Made by a program: the position numbers and the translations under genes. The notes beneath the pieces were generated by a model. The model made no database searches. It was not told the DNA's origin and worked only from the letters and a program-made list of their open reading frames with translations. Positions 2,766 through 46,980 of a stretch of DNA of 56,152 bases are shown piece by piece; within the stretch, counting starts at the first letter, position 1; each line of letters opens with the position of its first letter. The stretch is from Spirochaetota bacterium. Its GTDB lineage: Bacteria > Spirochaetota > Brachyspiria > Brachyspirales > JACRPF01. The stretch is from NCBI GenBank assembly GCA_038043445.1, contig JBBTBY010000027.1, forward strand, positions 1 to 56,152. The letters are read 5' to 3'.

Positions 2766-3931
2766 GGGCGTTCACCGCATATATCATCGCCGGCGATGCG
2801 GGCGGTTTTTTTGCGCCGATGGCCGATGTTGCAGGCAGGCCGTTCCTCGCATGGCAATTGGAATGGCTCTGCCGCCATTCGGTCACCGATGTCGTTGTCG
2901 CGGGGAATATCGATGTGATCCGTGAGCATTTCGGCGACGGCGGGAATATCGGTATGCGATTGCGATATGCCCCTTCGAACGGGCTGTCGTTTGCCGGATC
3001 GTTCTTTTCGGCGGCGGCACTTTACCCCTGCGAGGCATATCTGCTTCTCAGCGGGAAAAGTTTTTTCAATATCGATCTCACGTGGTTCATGCGTTTCGCG
3101 TACGAGCGCGGCGAGTGCTCTGCTGCGGTCAAATATCTGCCGGACATTCCCCTCGGGCCTATCGCGCTCGATGACGGTTTTCGTATCGTACGGCCCGACA
3201 GATCGCACGATATCTTCGTTGAGGGGTATCACTACGGCGGTGTGTACGCTGGTCGTTTTGCATCGCTTGTGCGTCCATCGCAAGCCCCGCACGCTGACGG
3301 GGATCTCTCCCCGGCCGTGTGCGGCATACCGTTCGGCGACCGCTTCATCGATGCCGACAGCGGATATGAACGCCTTGCGGCGGACCCGTCGGCATATTTT
3401 TCGGCGAAGAAGTCGTCCGCGATTTTTCTCGATCGCGACGGCATCCTTGTTGAGGACACCGGTTATCTTGCATCAACGCGGGATGTGCGCATCATCGATG
3501 AGGCGGTACTGCTGGTGCGCCGTGCCAATGAGCGCGGCAGGAAGGTCATCGTGCTCACGAATCAGGCCGGTGTTGCAAAGGGAAAATTCTCCGAGGCGGA
3601 TGTGACTGCGCTCAACCGATATATCGGCGATGGATTCCAAAAGCGCGGCGCGTGCATCGATGGATGGTATTATTGCCCGACACATCCTTCAGCATCAGTG
3701 GCATCGTATCGCCGTGAGAGCCTGCAGAGAAAGCCCAGCCCCGGCATGCTGCTTCTCGCCTGTGATGACCATGCGATCGATGCGACAGGCGCGCTCATGA
3801 TAGGCGATAAGGATTCGGACGCGCTTTCGCTCCCGTACATCAGAACGCACCTCCTGCAGGGCGCCTATCCCATTACGCGCAGGGATAACCTCTCGACCTG
3901 GGATAGAGCGATGCGGGCTGTCGGCGATTAG
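2762..3931 (+). CDS. Fusion: degenerate sugar nucleotidyltransferase domain + HisB/GmhB-type HAD phosphatase
   Basis: Two-domain protein of 389 residues. Residues 1-215 resemble a sugar-1-phosphate nucleotidyltransferase fold: 'GRPFLAWQLEWL' and 'TDVVVAGN' mirror the usual kP-l..qle and i.ivvg segments. The catalytic GG-x-GTR loop is replaced by AGDAGGFFAPM, so transferase activity is doubtful. Residues 218-389 are a HAD phosphatase of the HisB-N/GmhB type: D224-x-D226-G, then 'VLTNQAGVAKG', then a CPTHP half zinc site, then QRKPSPGM, then 'MIGDKDSDA'. The second CxC pair of the GmhB zinc loop is missing. GmhB removes the 7-phosphate from heptose bisphosphate in lipopolysaccharide or S-layer sugar synthesis, so a role in heptose or envelope sugar metabolism is likely. 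The gene starts in an ATGA overlap with the U32 gene. Confidence 0.82.
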   Translation: MRAFTAYIIAGDAGGFFAPMADVAGRPFLAWQLEWLCRHSVTDVVVAGNIDVIREHFGDGGNIGMRLRYAPSNGLSFAGSFFSAAALYPCEAYLLLSGKSFFNIDLTWFMRFAYERGECSAAVKYLPDIPLGPIALDDGFRIVRPDRSHDIFVEGYHYGGVYAGRFASLVRPSQAPHADGDLSPAVCGIPFGDRFIDADSGYERLAADPSAYFSAKKSSAIFLDRDGILVEDTGYLASTRDVRIIDEAVLLVRRANERGRKVIVLTNQAGVAKGKFSEADVTALNRYIGDGFQKRGACIDGWYYCPTHPSASVASYRRESLQRKPSPGMLLLACDDHAIDATGALMIGDKDSDALSLPYIRTHLLQGAYPITRRDNLSTWDRAMRAVGD

Positions 3932-4073: not shown

Positions 4074-5348
4074 ATGGGAAAGATCCTCTTTGTTTCATCG
4101 ACCAAGAAGGTTGCGGATGAGATAGCCGGCATAGTCCGTGATCACTCGGTACCGGCGAATTTCTCGTTCTGCGATGATATCAGTTATGCGATAGAGATCC
4201 TGAGCTATGAGCTCCCCGAGCTTCTCATCCTCGATTTTGACGATGCCTCCCTGCCGCTCGAGCCGCTCCTGGAGAAAATGCGCGAGGATCCGTGGCTCCA
4301 CTACGGCTGGATAATCGCGCTTCGATCGAAAGGGAGCGAGAGCGAATTCCTTTCGGCGATGCGGTATGCGAACATCATCGCCGTGCTCCGAGCGAAGGAT
4401 ATGCAGCGGCGGCTGCCCAGCATCGTGAAGATCGTGATGGACAATAAGCATCTTCTTTTCCAGCGTGACCTTCAGCGCTCGATACGTACGACCGTCTCGG
4501 GTATGTTCATCGTCGATAATGACCCCTATGAAGTGAACGTGTATGCGAGCATCATATCGAATTATCTTTTCTACAGCAATTACGTCGATATCGAGAAACG
4601 CGACAATGTCAAGGTGGCGCTCGTGGAACTCCTGCTCAATGCCGTCGAGCACGGGAACTGCGAGATAACCTTCGAGGAGAAGACGCGTTTTTCCCTCGAG
4701 GGCGGGAGCATCTTCGACCTTATCGATGAAAAGCTCAAGGACAGGCGCATCGCGGCGCGGCGCGTGAATTTCTCCTACCGCATTGCGCCGGAGCGCACGC
4801 ATCTTATCGTCCGCGACGAGGGGAAGGGGTTCAACTGGCGCATGGTAAAAAAACCCGCCGAGGTGAATCGGGAGATGCTCGATCACGGCCGCGGTATTGC
4901 GGTGGCCGAAAGTTCTGCGGGCGGGTTGAAGTACAACGAAAAAGGGAATGAGGTCAGTTTCGATGTCGACCATCAGGAGTCGCGCAATAATCTCGTGCCG
5001 ATAATCTTCGACAAGAAGGATGAGATATCGTTCAATCCGGGGCAGACCGTGTTCACGATGGGGGAGGAATCGAATTTCCTCTACTACATACACAGCGGTG
5101 CGTACGGCGTGTATGGGAACCGTAACAAGCTCATTGCGACGCTGAATTCAAGCGATATTTTCATCGGCGAGATGTCATTCCTGCTCAATGACCGGCGTAC
5201 GGCCACCGTGCGCGCTCATTCGCAGGGCACGCTCATCAAGATATCAAAGAAAGAGTTCACCGACGCGATAAAACGATATCCCTATTACGGGCTGATACTC
5301 GCACGGCTGCTGGCGAACCGCATCGACAGAATGAACAAGATGCTCTGA
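4074..5348 (+). CDS. Receiver - GHKL ATPase - cyclic-nucleotide-binding fusion regulator
   Basis: Single-chain signalling protein of 424 residues. Residues 1-120 look like a response-regulator receiver, with acceptor D54 in 'LLILDFDD'. Residues 150-300 are an RsbW/SpoIIAB-like HATPase: N-box 'ELLLNAVEHGN' with N189, G1-like 'VRDEGKGF' and G2-like 'HGRGIAVAE'. Residues 310-424 are a cNMP-binding/Crp-type sensor domain with the cassette 'GEMSFLLNDRRTATVRA'. There is no HisKA dimerisation domain, no HTH and no membrane segment. This suggests a cytoplasmic switch in which phosphorylation and a cyclic nucleotide tune an anti-sigma-like kinase or partner-binding activity. I chose 4074 because AGGAAAAGG sits 4 nt upstream; the earlier ATG at 4044 precedes the predicted transcription start. 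It stands alone with its own promoter, convergent with the b5-like gene. Domain calls are strong; the role is inferred. Confidence 0.85.
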   Translation: MGKILFVSSTKKVADEIAGIVRDHSVPANFSFCDDISYAIEILSYELPELLILDFDDASLPLEPLLEKMREDPWLHYGWIIALRSKGSESEFLSAMRYANIIAVLRAKDMQRRLPSIVKIVMDNKHLLFQRDLQRSIRTTVSGMFIVDNDPYEVNVYASIISNYLFYSNYVDIEKRDNVKVALVELLLNAVEHGNCEITFEEKTRFSLEGGSIFDLIDEKLKDRRIAARRVNFSYRIAPERTHLIVRDEGKGFNWRMVKKPAEVNREMLDHGRGIAVAESSAGGLKYNEKGNEVSFDVDHQESRNNLVPIIFDKKDEISFNPGQTVFTMGEESNFLYYIHSGAYGVYGNRNKLIATLNSSDIFIGEMSFLLNDRRTATVRAHSQGTLIKISKKEFTDAIKRYPYYGLILARLLANRIDRMNKML

Positions 5349-41854: not shown

Positions 41855-41891
41855 GCGTACGCAGCGGCGATGACACTGTATGAGGAGTGGT

Positions 41892-42707
41892 ATGCAGTAT
41901 ACGCTTAAGCGCATCTGTGCCGGTGTCCATGAGAACGCCATCATCCCGACACCGACGATAGGCGCCAATGGATACTACACGGTACGAAAGGATATCGTTT
42001 CACACGATGTTGCGCTCCCGGTTCATCGCCTCTATGCCGTGCACAGCGGGCAGATAAGTGCACGCACCGATGTCCAGCGCTGCACCATGGGGGCGGGTGC
42101 CTTTCTCTGGGTCTCGGCGGTATATCGGCATGACATTACGCTCCGTGCCGGTACGCGGGTGAGCGCACTCGATTTTTCACTGACAAAGAGCGGAAAGTTC
42201 GTACATTTAGAGCTGCCCTTTGCGTGGTTCGCACACGGCGGCGAGCCGTTCATGATACTCTCCCAGGCCGCGCGTGATCGATGGGTGAAGGCTGATGGTG
42301 AATCGCGTGTTCGCCTTAAGGCGTACATCATCCTGCTCTTGAGCTCCATGGAGCGTCTCATCGGGGAACGCAATCGCACCAGGGCCGTATTCACCGAAGG
42401 GCAGCGTATGGCGATCGCCGGTCTCGTGACGAAGCGCATCCATGAGCGCATCTCGATAACCGATATCGCGGAGCGGCTTTCGCTTTCGCGCGATTACTGC
42501 TCGCGATTGTTCACGAACACGTTCCGTGTGTCGCCGCGGCGCTACATTCTCGAGGAGCGTATGAAGGCGATAGCGCGGGAACTGCTGCAGAGCGGCGGTA
42601 CGGTAGGTGATATCGCGCATCGTTTCGGATATGAGAGCGTGCATTCGTTCGGCAGGCTTTTCAAACAGGTGCTCGGCGTAAGCCCCGCGAGCGTGCGGCG
42701 CGGCTGA
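41892..42707 (+). CDS. AraC-family transcriptional regulator, candidate controller of the following genes
   Basis: Regulator of 271 residues. The N-terminal part (1-140) is a cupin-type sensor ('HRLYAVHSGQISARTD', 'GAFLWVSAVYRHDI'). Residues 175-271 are the double HTH: 'SITDIAERLSLSRDYCSRLFTNTFR' and 'TVGDIAHRFGYESVHSFGRLFKQVLG', then 'SPASVRRG'. The start at 41892 fits GAGGAG 6 nt upstream; the ATG at 41880 lies before that site. Its stop codon lies inside the first of two copies of a roughly 49-bp element with AraC-type half-sites. These precede the two genes downstream, so it very likely activates or represses both. It follows the DUF167 gene after a 37-bp gap. Confidence 0.87.
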   Translation: MQYTLKRICAGVHENAIIPTPTIGANGYYTVRKDIVSHDVALPVHRLYAVHSGQISARTDVQRCTMGAGAFLWVSAVYRHDITLRAGTRVSALDFSLTKSGKFVHLELPFAWFAHGGEPFMILSQAARDRWVKADGESRVRLKAYIILLLSSMERLIGERNRTRAVFTEGQRMAIAGLVTKRIHERISITDIAERLSLSRDYCSRLFTNTFRVSPRRYILEERMKAIARELLQSGGTVGDIAHRFGYESVHSFGRLFKQVLGVSPASVRRG

Positions 42708-42752
42708 ATAGCCGTTTCAGGATACCTTTTTCCACTGCCGGGATATTGCCTT
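42704..42752 (+). promoter_or_regulatory. AraC-type operator element, copy 1
   Basis: A 49-bp segment about 84% identical to 43628-43676. Each contains two direct half-sites with the core C-R-GGATA: CAGGATAC (42718-42725) and CGGGATAT (42739-42746), 21 bp apart or two helical turns. The second half-site abuts the -35 box TTGCCT, as in class II AraC activation sites. Confidence 0.6.
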
Positions 42753-42774
42753 TCACGGGCGGCGTTGATATGAT
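42746..42774 (+). promoter_or_regulatory. Promoter predicting a leaderless mRNA for the EEP-type gene
   Basis: TTGCCT (42746-42751), a 17-bp spacer and TATGAT (42769-42774). The ATG at 42781 begins at the predicted start point, with no Shine-Dalgarno site. Confidence 0.55.
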
Positions 42775-42780
42775 ACAGTC

Positions 42781-43593
42781 ATGCGAATAATGACATGCAA
42801 TATCCGGTATTCCGCGGCAAAGGATGGGGATGACGGCTGGCAGTTCAGGAAGAGATTTCTGGTGAAGACCGTCCTGTCGAGAAGGCCCGATATCATTGGC
42901 TTCCAGGAAGTATGGGAAGATCAGTTCGCGTTCCTGAGGAAGCAGCTGAAAGGATACGATCATTACGGTTTATTCATGCTCCCCGGTGCAGCACGGAAAG
43001 ACCCGCTCAATGTGATATTCTACAAGCGGGCGGGATTCGAATTGTTGAACGCATCAGCTTTTTATTTATCGGAAACGCCGCATATTCCGGCATCAAGGTC
43101 ATGGGATAACAGTGAATATAATCCCCGCCACGCCAATTGGGTGCTTCTAAAGGAACGGTCGAGCGGGCGCGAATTCCGATTCATGAACACGCATCTTGAC
43201 CATGAGGGGCAGATCGCCAGGGAGAACCAGGCGCGCATCGTTTGCGAGAACGCGAACGCATACCCGCAGGAATTCCCGCAGATACTTACCGGCGATATGA
43301 ACTGCGATGCGAGTAATGCGGCGATGAAAATATATTTCAGCAATGACTGGGTCGATACGTATGAGGCGGTTCACGGCACCCCCATGCCCGGGTATACGTT
43401 CCATGCGTTCAAAGGCAGCGGGTATGAGCATAGGGATAGAACGGACAAGGACTACATCGATAAGATGGACTGGATACTGGTCAAGGGCGCGGTGAACATT
43501 TCGGGTGCCTTGATCGTTACCGATTCCAGGGACGGCAGATACTCCAGCGATCATTACTTCATAATCGCTGATGTTGGCGTCGTGCCCGCATGA
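42781..43593 (+). CDS. Endonuclease/exonuclease/phosphatase (EEP)-fold hydrolase
   Basis: Cytoplasmic protein of 270 residues in the DNase I-like fold that includes nucleases and phosphodiesterases or phosphatases. Family residues in order: N in 'MTCNIR' (residue 7), Glu in 'IGFQEVWEDQ', 'MNTHLDHEGQIARENQAR' with a His, 'LTGDMNCDASN' (Asp and Asn) and the final 'YSSDHYFI' His. They fit a metal-dependent phosphoester hydrolase. The lack of a signal peptide places it in the cytosol. Its promoter is shared in design with the secreted GH51-like gene, so it belongs to the same regulon and could act on a phosphorylated sugar. ATG at 42790 is a minor alternative start. Confidence 0.8.
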   Translation: MRIMTCNIRYSAAKDGDDGWQFRKRFLVKTVLSRRPDIIGFQEVWEDQFAFLRKQLKGYDHYGLFMLPGAARKDPLNVIFYKRAGFELLNASAFYLSETPHIPASRSWDNSEYNPRHANWVLLKERSSGREFRFMNTHLDHEGQIARENQARIVCENANAYPQEFPQILTGDMNCDASNAAMKIYFSNDWVDTYEAVHGTPMPGYTFHAFKGSGYEHRDRTDKDYIDKMDWILVKGAVNISGALIVTDSRDGRYSSDHYFIIADVGVVPA

Positions 43594-43627
43594 GTACATC
43601 GAGCGCTCATACCGGTGCAATAGCTGC

Positions 43628-43676
43628 CTGAATCACCGTTTCAGGATACATTTTCCCCTTACCGGGATATTGCATT
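43628..43676 (+). promoter_or_regulatory. AraC-type operator element, copy 2
   Basis: Second copy of the element at 42704-42752. The half-sites are CAGGATAC (43642-43649) and CGGGATAT (43663-43670), again 21 bp apart, with the proximal one adjoining the -35 box TTGCAT of the GH51-like gene. Retention of spacing and -35 position in both copies points to function. Confidence 0.6.
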
Positions 43677-43698
43677 GGAACGGTATTGGTAGTATGGT
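43670..43698 (+). promoter_or_regulatory. Promoter of the GH51-like gene, -10 box inside a tandem repeat
   Basis: TTGCAT (43670-43675), a 17-bp spacer and TATGGT (43693-43698). The -10 box is itself part of the 8-bp repeat, so three further TATGGT boxes and one TATGGC follow at 8-bp steps. Confidence 0.5.
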
Positions 43699-43729
43699 AG
43701 TATGGTAGTATGGTAGTATGGTAGTATGG
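43688..43729 (+). repeat. 8-bp tandem repeat (GGTAGTAT, 5.25 copies)
   Basis: Perfect array of GGTAGTAT units at 43688-43695, 43696-43703, 43704-43711, 43712-43719 and 43720-43727, then GG. It lies in the promoter and leader of the GH51-like gene, 24 bp before the ATG. The unit is prone to slipped-strand change in copy number. Confidence 0.9.
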
Positions 43730-43753
43730 CGAAATAGATCGCGAGGTGATCAT

Positions 43754-45793
43754 ATGCATGCCCGGATAAAGCTTTCAGCGGTCATTTCGATGCTGATGAT
43801 CGCTTCGGTTGAGGCGGCATCCGCCATCAACGGTGCTTTCATGATCGAGCAGAACGGTTCCATACAGGACTGGACATCGGTCGGTCACTGGATGATGAAG
43901 GTCGGGAAAGGCGATGCCGGCGGTATTGCGATAACTGTGACGAAGGCAGCGGCGAAATTCAATGAAATAGGATTTCAATCGGTGAAAGTACCGCTTTCGA
44001 AGGGATCGTATAAATTCACGGTAATTGTCGGCGGCGATGACGGCGCGAGGATATTCATCGGTGCGCGTACATCGCTTCCCTCCCCCAACGATGTTCCCGG
44101 CAGGGATATATGGGAAACGCTCCGCGGCAAGGAAAAGACCGTTACCGCGATATTCACGATAGCGGAGGATACGGCGACACGCATCATCATAGGCATCGGA
44201 CTGGGAGAGAACGTGGATAAAACGATAACGATACGTGAATTGTCCCTCGAGCCGACATCCGAGAAAGTATCGATCGAACAGAAGCGAATCGGTGCCGGTA
44301 CCGAATATGACGGCATCATACTCCCGAAGGAGTCGGAGCTCGTCGACACGAATACGCTTTCGACCGCTGTCGTTGTGAACGAGAACAGCATCATCCGCCC
44401 CGTTACACCGCACCTGTTCGGGTACAATCACGACGGTCCCTCATCGACACGTGTGTTCTTCAAGGATAATGCCATACACGGCGAATTTGTGGAGCAGGTG
44501 AAAGGGAAGAACATACCGATGCCGCTCAACCGGATACAGGTGTTCGGGTATTTCGAGACGACGCGTTGGAAAAAGTGTCTCGGCCCGTTCGAAGACAGGC
44601 AGGTGGCGCAGTGGTATGGCTGGGACAAGGGCTCAAAAAAACCATATGGCCCTGTTGAAGCGGTCGATCTGTGCCAGCGCTTCGATCCGAAGGCGCAGTT
44701 CACCTGGGTAGTCAATCCCTGGGATGATCCCCCGGACAGCGCCGATCTCGTTGAATTCCTGACCGGCAGCGGAGAGAAGCCGCGCAACAGCGAGAACTGG
44801 GCAAAAAAAAGAATCGAGCTTGGTCTGCCGAAGCCGGTGCCGATAGTGCTTTATGAGATAGGCAATGAAGTCGAGTGGAGTAATCCCCCGAAGCGCATGA
44901 GCGTAACGGAATATATTGAGCGGGGCAAAAAGCATATCGATGCGATACGCAGCGTCGACCCGAAGGCGAAGATAGCGATGCACGCGGCCACTGCGCCATG
45001 GGGATATCAGCAGCGTTTCAAGGAAGATTGGCGTGATTGGCATAAGGCGATATTGAAAGAACTCGGCCATGAGATAGAGTATATCTCCATCCACCCGTAT
45101 TACAGCGGCTTACCGGTCTCGTATATCGAAGAATTCCTCGATACGCTTCGCGACGACATTGCGGCAAGTAAGGGCGCGGGACGCGTGTCGATATTCATTT
45201 CCGAGCATGCGACATGGCCGAAGGACATCAGCAAGAACGATACGTGGTATGCCGTGAATACGCTCACATCGATGCTCTCCGTATCGCATTTCCTGAGCAG
45301 GATGCTTCAACGCCCCGAGGTCACCGCGGCGACGTATCATTGTTTCACACACGGCGGCGGGCTCTGGGGGCTCATCGATATCGGCAAGGAGACGCAGAAC
45401 CGTTTCACAACGGCGGCAGCCGATCTCTTTTCCATGTTCAGGGATAATCTCGGGAGTGTCGTCGTAAAGACCGAAACGAGCGGGGACAAGATACCCATGC
45501 CCGGGACAGGCGAGAAGACATGGTTCGTCGCCACCGCAATGACGACGAAGGACGGGCTCAGCATGTTCCTCGTCAACCGCGAGCCCTCGGCGTCGCGTGC
45601 CATCGATCTTACGTTCAGCGGGCAATACAATCTGGTAAAGGAAACGGTGTTCACCGCGACATCGATGCGTTCACATAATACGGAGTTTATTACCAATAAT
45701 TTTGTTACCGTTAAGCAGACCTCAGTGAACGATTTCAAGTCATATCTCATGCCGCCGAAAAGCGCGGTATTCCTTACGCTGAAACGAAAATAA
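43754..45793 (+). CDS. Secreted GH51-like glycosidase (clan GH-A, alpha-L-arabinofuranosidase type)
   Basis: Exported enzyme of 679 residues. Residues 1-22 form a signal peptide (MHARIKLSAVISMLMIASVEA). Residues 30-165 are a beta-sandwich carbohydrate-binding-like domain. The TIM barrel follows, opening with 'HLFGYNHDGPSSTRVFFKD'. The acid/base is probably E372 in 'VLYEIGNEVEW' and the nucleophile E484 in 'VSIFISEHATWP'. A C-terminal beta domain ends 'LMPPKSAVFLTLKRK', as in GH51. The start at 43754 fits GAGGTG upstream, inside the leader after the tandem repeat. It probably belongs to the regulon of the AraC protein at 41892. The substrate (arabinan or xylan side chains?) is inferred from the family. 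Confidence 0.75.
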   Translation: MHARIKLSAVISMLMIASVEAASAINGAFMIEQNGSIQDWTSVGHWMMKVGKGDAGGIAITVTKAAAKFNEIGFQSVKVPLSKGSYKFTVIVGGDDGARIFIGARTSLPSPNDVPGRDIWETLRGKEKTVTAIFTIAEDTATRIIIGIGLGENVDKTITIRELSLEPTSEKVSIEQKRIGAGTEYDGIILPKESELVDTNTLSTAVVVNENSIIRPVTPHLFGYNHDGPSSTRVFFKDNAIHGEFVEQVKGKNIPMPLNRIQVFGYFETTRWKKCLGPFEDRQVAQWYGWDKGSKKPYGPVEAVDLCQRFDPKAQFTWVVNPWDDPPDSADLVEFLTGSGEKPRNSENWAKKRIELGLPKPVPIVLYEIGNEVEWSNPPKRMSVTEYIERGKKHIDAIRSVDPKAKIAMHAATAPWGYQQRFKEDWRDWHKAILKELGHEIEYISIHPYYSGLPVSYIEEFLDTLRDDIAASKGAGRVSIFISEHATWPKDISKNDTWYAVNTLTSMLSVSHFLSRMLQRPEVTAATYHCFTHGGGLWGLIDIGKETQNRFTTAAADLFSMFRDNLGSVVVKTETSGDKIPMPGTGEKTWFVATAMTTKDGLSMFLVNREPSASRAIDLTFSGQYNLVKETVFTATSMRSHNTEFITNNFVTVKQTSVNDFKSYLMPPKSAVFLTLKRK

Positions 45794-45852: not shown

Positions 45853-45882
45853 TTGACAAAGCTGGTAGTTCTGTATTATATT
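45853..45882 (+). promoter_or_regulatory. Promoter for gntR-type regulator operon
   Basis: Perfect TTGACA (45853-45858), then TATTAT (45874-45879, 15-bp spacer) or TATATT (45877-45882, 18-bp spacer). Neither spacing is ideal. The perfect palindrome that follows at 45880-45903 touches the -10 region. Confidence 0.5.
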
Positions 45883-45903
45883 AAATGCAATAGTGCATTT
45901 AAT
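45880..45903 (+). promoter_or_regulatory. Perfect palindromic operator abutting the start codon
   Basis: ATTAAATGCA (45880-45889) and TGCATTTAAT (45894-45903) form a perfect 10-bp inverted repeat with a 4-bp centre, ending directly before the ATG at 45904. Position and symmetry suit autorepression by the encoded GntR-type protein. Confidence 0.7.
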
Positions 45904-46980
45904 ATGACTATAAAAATATCGAAAAAAAGCCGAATTTCAGTGACACAGCAGATGCGCAGCCAGATACTTGCGCATATGAATGCCAATGCTCTGAAAGAGA
46001 ACGACCGCCTTCCGTCGGAACGCGAGATCGCCCGCATGACCGGTGTGAATGTCAATACCGTCGGTAAGGTATATCGGCAGCTTGTGGACGAGGGATATCT
46101 CTCCCGAGATGTCGGGAGGGGCACCTTCGTCACTTCGGGGCTGACGAAGGGGAAATTCCTCATCCTCGTGTATCAGAGGCATCTGCAGCCCGGCGCGCTC
46201 TTCAATCGGCAGCTTTTTGACTCGACGGAAGATATTCTCAGGGAAAAAGGATATGCCATCGAGATAATCGAGGTGCCGTATCGGAACGATGCCTGGCTCG
46301 ACAGTAATCGCGCACTGTATAATCGCCTTGCCGGCGGAGTCTATGCCGGGGTTTTTACGGGCGGCATTGCGCTGACCGCGTTGTATTCCGATATGCTCCG
46401 AGAGTGCCGTATCCCCGTGCTTTCCGTCGGCTATCCCCCGGTGAATGGGTGCAATGATTTCTTCTACACCGACTACGAGGATCTTTACCGCAAGGCATGT
46501 GCTCTGCTCAGAGAACGCCAAAGCCGCGCACCGGTGTTCATCTGCGGTGAGACCGAGATAGTCCGGGACGGGAAATTTTTACCAGCTGACACCGAACTCC
46601 TTTCACTCTGCAGCAAAGCCGGCGTACCGTATCTCCCTGAACGGCATATCCGTCTGCCGTGGTCGAAGATGAATGAAAGCGGTTTTGAAGAGATACGCTC
46701 TTTCCTTGCCGGGCGCGAATTCGATGCCGTTGTGTGCGACAATGATATATATTCTGAGATAACGCAGCTCGCATTATTCGCCCTGCAGATCGATATGAAA
46801 GAGCGTATCATGGTTGCGCATGCGAACCGAGGGCTTGACCGGCTTATCGTCGTGCCCGTGAAGAAGATCTATTTCGATACCCGTGCATTCGCCGAACGTC
46901 TTTCGGCGAGGATGACGGAGCTTGCGGACAGCTATGAGGGACCGCAGAACGTTCCCGTTACGATACGTTTTGAGGACTAG
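45904..46980 (+). CDS. GntR-type DNA-binding + periplasmic-binding-protein-like sensor repressor
   Basis: Regulator of 358 residues. Residues 1-75 are a GntR winged helix ('QMRSQILAHMNANALKENDRLPSEREIARMTGVNVNTVGKVYRQLVDEGYLSRDVGRGTFV'-type order). Residues 85-355 are a LacI/periplasmic-binding-like ligand domain ('KFLILVYQRHL', 'VYAGVFTGGIALTAL', 'EFDAVVCDNDIYSEITQLALFAL'). The combination is known from AraR-type repressors of sugar use, where the sugar releases the protein from DNA. I start it at 45904, directly after the palindrome; the frame to 45853 would run through the promoter. No Shine-Dalgarno is visible. It is 9 bp before the first GH71-type gene, so it heads that operon and probably represses it. 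Confidence 0.85.
   Translation: MTIKISKKSRISVTQQMRSQILAHMNANALKENDRLPSEREIARMTGVNVNTVGKVYRQLVDEGYLSRDVGRGTFVTSGLTKGKFLILVYQRHLQPGALFNRQLFDSTEDILREKGYAIEIIEVPYRNDAWLDSNRALYNRLAGGVYAGVFTGGIALTALYSDMLRECRIPVLSVGYPPVNGCNDFFYTDYEDLYRKACALLRERQSRAPVFICGETEIVRDGKFLPADTELLSLCSKAGVPYLPERHIRLPWSKMNESGFEEIRSFLAGREFDAVVCDNDIYSEITQLALFALQIDMKERIMVAHANRGLDRLIVVPVKKIYFDTRAFAERLSARMTELADSYEGPQNVPVTIRFED

Follow-up and report, generated by a model that had tools for sequence, protein, structure and literature searches.

Upstream of a gene for a GH51-like secreted glycoside hydrolase in a spirochaete, five perfect tandem copies of the octanucleotide GGTAGTAT followed by GG occupy positions 43688-43729 of the plus strand of the 56,152-nt stretch of DNA that was analyzed (hereinafter the window). 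The sequence reads exactly as a preliminary description of this DNA had it, and the array is real and above the chance level. Taking all parts of the explanation jointly, we consider it fairly probable that the array is a microsatellite that grew by slippage and now forms the -10, transcription start and leader stretch of a promoter activated by an AraC-type regulator. Its unit number most likely has either no effect or a graded effect on expression, rather than acting as an on/off switch.

Rarity of the array

TRF calls the array at 43687-43729 with a period of 8, 5.4 copies, a 100% match and a score of 86, which is the highest in the window and about twice that of the runner-up array. A 2-Mb simulation with the dinucleotide composition of the genome contained no perfect array of at least 18 bp. 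The survey of repeats in the organism's own 5.13-Mb genome of 178 contigs covered a sample of 1.78 Mb (35%); it recovered about 10 perfect arrays of at least 32 bp, several of them at contig ends, and the present array is the sole perfect one with five copies or more of a unit no shorter than 5 bp. The 24-mer made of three units has no other site in the complete own assembly and is absent from the 295 other genomes of our comparison set (296 Spirochaetota, own genome included, with one family mate). Zero matches were obtained in a plasmid search using the promoter sequence.

Genes around the array

The gene behind the array (43754-45793, plus strand) codes for a 679-aa protein that is likely to have a signal peptide. 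Its match to PF06964 (2e-4) lies below the cut-off, with 22.1 bits versus 27, and it scores 46 versus the 625 required for NF051901; structures of GH51 arabinofuranosidases match it with values down to 6.9e-7. On these sequence comparisons we term it GH51-like only and do not assign it to the GH51 arabinofuranosidases. The best ortholog, 55% identical, comes from the metagenome-assembled genome UWPOB_SPIRO2 (G040, locus L026), which originates from a wastewater bioreactor (PMC8103865). This provenance does not bear out the host-associated setting that the preliminary description mentions for tandem repeats in promoters.

Farther upstream on the plus strand lie genes for an AraC-family regulator (41880-42707, 275 aa; Pfam HTH_18, 2e-19) and for a protein of the endonuclease/exonuclease/phosphatase family (42781-43593, 270 aa; PF03372, 1.2e-11), and a GntR-family regulator (45853-46980) is a further neighbor. 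Among the 296 Spirochaetota, close orthologs of the AraC-family gene are found only in G001 (73%) and G040 (58%). The gene at 42781-43593 separates araC from the GH51-like gene here but not in G040, where the GH51-like ortholog (starting at 5001 of L026) comes directly after araC (ending at 4909).

A putative AraC-type operator in two copies

Alignment of the upstream flank of the array with the promoter of the GH51-like ortholog revealed a common 19-mer, GTTTCAGGATnCnTTTTnC; the array itself is missing from the aligned promoter flank in UWPOB_SPIRO2. Exact matches to the 19-mer in three whole genomes are confined to 42714 and 43638 of the window and to one G040 site immediately after the araC ortholog; the G001 version, immediately after the araC ortholog there, has one mismatch. 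Matches with two or three mismatches elsewhere in the genome are probably due to chance. The 19-mer begins a longer element of the form GTTTCAGGATACCTTTTTC-n7-GGGATATTG, a direct repeat with a 21-bp period, in which the GGATA core recurs after exactly 21 bp in GGGATATTG, 7 bases past the 19-mer. Across four promoters, an offset of 21 is the self-similarity maximum, with 35 matches versus at most 24 at the other offsets from 14 to 29; the second half-site of the G040 element is degenerate. We describe this element as a putative operator, with one copy at 42714-42748 and a second, upstream of the GH51-like gene, at 43638-43672 (both on the plus strand), the latter having the exact 19-mer and both halves. 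It lies directly 3' of araC in all three genomes that carry it (the own genome, G001 and G040).

Binding sites of AraC-family proteins are typically direct repeats with 21-bp spacing. In class II activator promoters of the araBAD type, the half-sites are 21 bp apart, the downstream one overlaps the -35 and the regulator gene is adjacent. The present element seems to follow this plan, judging from its direct-repeat half-sites with the same 21-bp period, its overlap with the -35 and the neighboring AraC-family gene, though it differs from the araBAD type in half-site sequence. The AraC-family protein is likely to be the regulator of both promoters in the window. Irrespective of the array, a conserved AraC-type putative operator with two target promoters is now defined in the window.

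The bases that precede the element are also common to the two copies (CTGAATnnCCGTTTCAGG; 42704-42733 and 43628-43657) and, in copy 1, include the araC stop codon. This suggests that copy 2 is a duplicate of the end of araC together with its promoter, arising when the gene at 42781-43593 became interposed. A terminator-like hairpin at 43627-43645 was considered as a terminator and rejected: it overlaps the putative operator and its T run is not contiguous with the stem, making it more likely a part of the conserved element.

The probable -35 and -10 elements

With positions numbered from 0 at the start of the element, we compared the four promoters, which come from three genomes and align without gaps. 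The -10-like hexamers TATGAT, TATGGT and TATTGT lie at +55 in three of them, and the fourth has TAAGAT at +56, the G040 -10 being off register by 1 bp. Seventeen nucleotides upstream of +55, within the downstream half-site, three promoters have TTGCCT, TTGCAT and TTGTAT. The promoter of the GH51-like gene would accordingly consist of a -35 box TTGCAT (43670-43675), which overlaps GGGATATTG, and a -10 box TATGGT (43693-43698), which straddles units 1 and 2 (both boxes on the plus strand). The preliminary description had paired TTGCAT with TATGGT at 17 bp and had the array start at the latter; the coordinates uphold the 17-nt spacer, and the register of TATGGT agrees with that in two of the three other operator-bearing promoters and differs by 1 bp from that in the third.

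Consensus matching speaks less clearly: the -35 agrees in three of six positions and TATGGT in four of six, and the TTGCAT/TATGGT pair is missing from the output of the promoter scan. On the supporting side, about 0.6% of genomic hexamers score as well as TATGGT for a -10. A possible alternative -10 is TGG-TAGTAT at +52 or +60 inside the array, and TATAGT at +60 of the G001 promoter is a better hexamer. Because the register is conserved across promoters, which is stronger ground than consensus matching, the assignment of TTGCAT as the -35 and TATGGT as the -10 is probably right.

In the first window promoter (42714-42780), which precedes the exonuclease/endonuclease/phosphatase-family gene, the -10 box TATGAT (42769-42774, plus strand) lies at +55 and is preceded by TGA. 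As it ends only 7 nt before the ATG, the mRNA from this promoter may be leaderless.

Predicted operation of the promoter

In the favored model, whose promoter anatomy we hold with reasonable confidence from the sequence, the AraC-family protein encoded at 41880-42707 would bind 43638-43672 and recruit RNA polymerase from a class II position. The polymerase would open the DNA at TATGGT and begin transcription 7 nt past it, in unit 3 at about 43705, so that the remaining units would be transcribed as a 5' leader (43705-43753, plus strand) ahead of a fixed Shine-Dalgarno site. We infer the start site, the binding and activation by AraC and any influence of unit number from this layout. The Shine-Dalgarno sequence itself, GAGGTGA (43743-43749, plus strand), stands at a fixed distance from the start codon at 43754. 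Such a leader would measure about 49 nt with five units and 17 nt with one, changing by 8 nt per unit.

The array starts at +50 and runs downstream through the -10 and the predicted start site into the leader. For two or more units, the operator, the -35 and the first -10 keep their positions, the spacer to this -10 holding only 5 bases of unit 1 whatever the copy number, and the last unit, with all that follows it as far as the start codon, is likewise unaffected by gain or loss of units. With identical units and an array that opens at the -10, the -35/-10, operator/-10 and ribosome-site spacings all stay constant. What would vary is the length of the leader, the count of spare -10-like hexamers (TATGGT and TGG-TAGTAT recur every 8 bp) and the count of mini-ORFs of the form MVVW*. 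The locus illustrates that an array can expand right at a -10 and leave the promoter intact, since the working distances on either flank are retained. The operator-to-ATG distance is 116 bp here. A one-unit version would have 84 bp, close to the 86 bp of the array-free ortholog, which is consistent with an array that expanded from one initial unit.

Alternative roles for the array

Spacer-type promoter switches have their array between the -35 and the -10, and unit number sets the spacing. The preliminary description had proposed that units alter both spacing and leader length. The part concerning leader length stands, but the spacing part does not: although the unit holds the -10-like words TATGGT and TAGTAT, the array starts only at 43688, at the -10 and downstream of the -35, and both the 17-nt spacer and the +55 register are kept for two or more units. 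We therefore reject by layout a switch in which unit number sets the -35 to -10 distance and find it scarcely credible, unless a more distal -10 is in use. Only a little less improbable is an iteron-like platform of multiple sites for one of the neighboring regulators. Two such regulators, AraC and GntR family, are indeed encoded nearby (41880-42707 and 45853-46980), but the conserved AraC-type putative operator lies elsewhere, at 43638-43672, and the 8-bp period is incompatible with the helical turn; we rejected the platform since the array word is missing from the three other operator-bearing promoters and its three-unit form from the rest of the genome.

An effect at the level of translation also seems very unlikely. 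In it, the ATG at 43718 in the last unit would be an alternative start, and additional mini-ORFs would compete for ribosomes. This ATG is in frame with the GH51-like gene without an intervening stop, and the earlier ATGs of the array each open a four-codon MVVW*. No Shine-Dalgarno sequence precedes the array ATGs, however, while the good GAGGTGA serves 43754; the N termini of the GH51-like orthologs begin with the signal peptide, and the in-frame ATG stays at a constant distance regardless of unit number. When leaders with 1 to 10 units were folded, the accessibility of the ribosome site shifted with no clean on/off masking, and an RNA switch in the leader was rejected on this ground.

A more serious, if still rather doubtful, contender is a true contingency promoter, in which frequent slippage would generate cells that differ in GH51-like expression via leader length. 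It has in its favor the perfection of the array, as expected if it was recently active, and a layout equal to that of the P2 promoter of Haemophilus influenzae hmw1A (PMC8262952). Against it count the mere five units, compared to 13 to 24 in the hmw1A work, the lack of a second allele with a different unit number in the assembly, the lack of a set of promoter repeats in the sampled 35% of the own genome and a target that is a glycoside hydrolase rather than a surface antigen. On balance we read the array as probably a microsatellite of the leader, whose effects would be graded at most.

Comparison with known repeat-bearing promoters

By analogy of design, the closest known system is the hmw1A P2 promoter. 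At the P2 promoters of hmw1A/hmw2A, with ATCTTTC repeats, the first repeat supplies bases of the -10 and the other repeats belong to the 5' UTR (PMC8262952); likewise, we find a perfect short tandem array in the promoter and leader, with the first unit contributing to a -10 whose register is conserved over four promoters and the other units downstream of it. The two differ in that our array has five units of 8 bp as opposed to 13 to 24 of 7 bp, and has an AraC-type putative operator upstream and a glycoside hydrolase as the product in place of an adhesin. More hmw1A repeats entail less transcript, by a mechanism left open by the authors (PMC8262952). Another parallel is with the GCAGA leader repeats of pil1 in Streptococcus gallolyticus, in which out-of-frame changes shift the stop of a leader peptide relative to a terminator (PMC3894217). 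Both have a repeat array in the leader with short upstream reading frames running through it, but no terminator was found between our array and the GH51-like gene, and the mini-ORFs have just 4 codons. A literature search for SSR phase variation at a glycoside hydrolase promoter returned only a Helicobacter comparative-genomics study, seemingly on another matter, which leaves absence unproven.

If unit number does vary, the range of promoter/leader repeats in the style of hmw1A would widen beyond host-interaction genes to a regulated gene for carbohydrate use, in a little-studied spirochaete lineage. At its most speculative, an octanucleotide array on the -10 of an AraC-activated promoter might serve a spirochaete as the rheostat of an enzyme that degrades polysaccharides, the regulator setting when and the heritable unit number how strongly the gene is expressed, with bet-hedging in glycan use as the result; we think this improbable.

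Other tandem repeats in the genome

Several further arrays were observed on other contigs of the own genome. Arrays with a 21-bp unit are present at the ends of contigs C31, C39, C56 and C106 (L061:21-92, L161:1-55, L178:14184-14259 and L188:7123-7198), two of them being mutual reverse complements, and probably broke the assembly there. An AAGG array of 8.5 copies (L048:4992-5025, contig C17) precedes a 342-codon ORF by about 120 bp, and a minus-strand gene has 3.1 copies of the 11-bp unit ATCTACGACGC (L065:5577-5610, contig C35) immediately upstream of its near-consensus promoter, TTGACA-n16-TATAAT. The single MutS match of this kind in the genome (L050:2626-5382, minus strand, contig C19) contains a perfect 12-bp tandem repeat of 2.67 copies at 3102-3133, which is missing in the G001 and G040 orthologs and adds AWAI to the ATPase domain immediately behind its GRGTSTYDG motif. 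Mismatch repair could be impaired or toggled by this repeat, which resembles the LALALA repeat in mutL of enterics.
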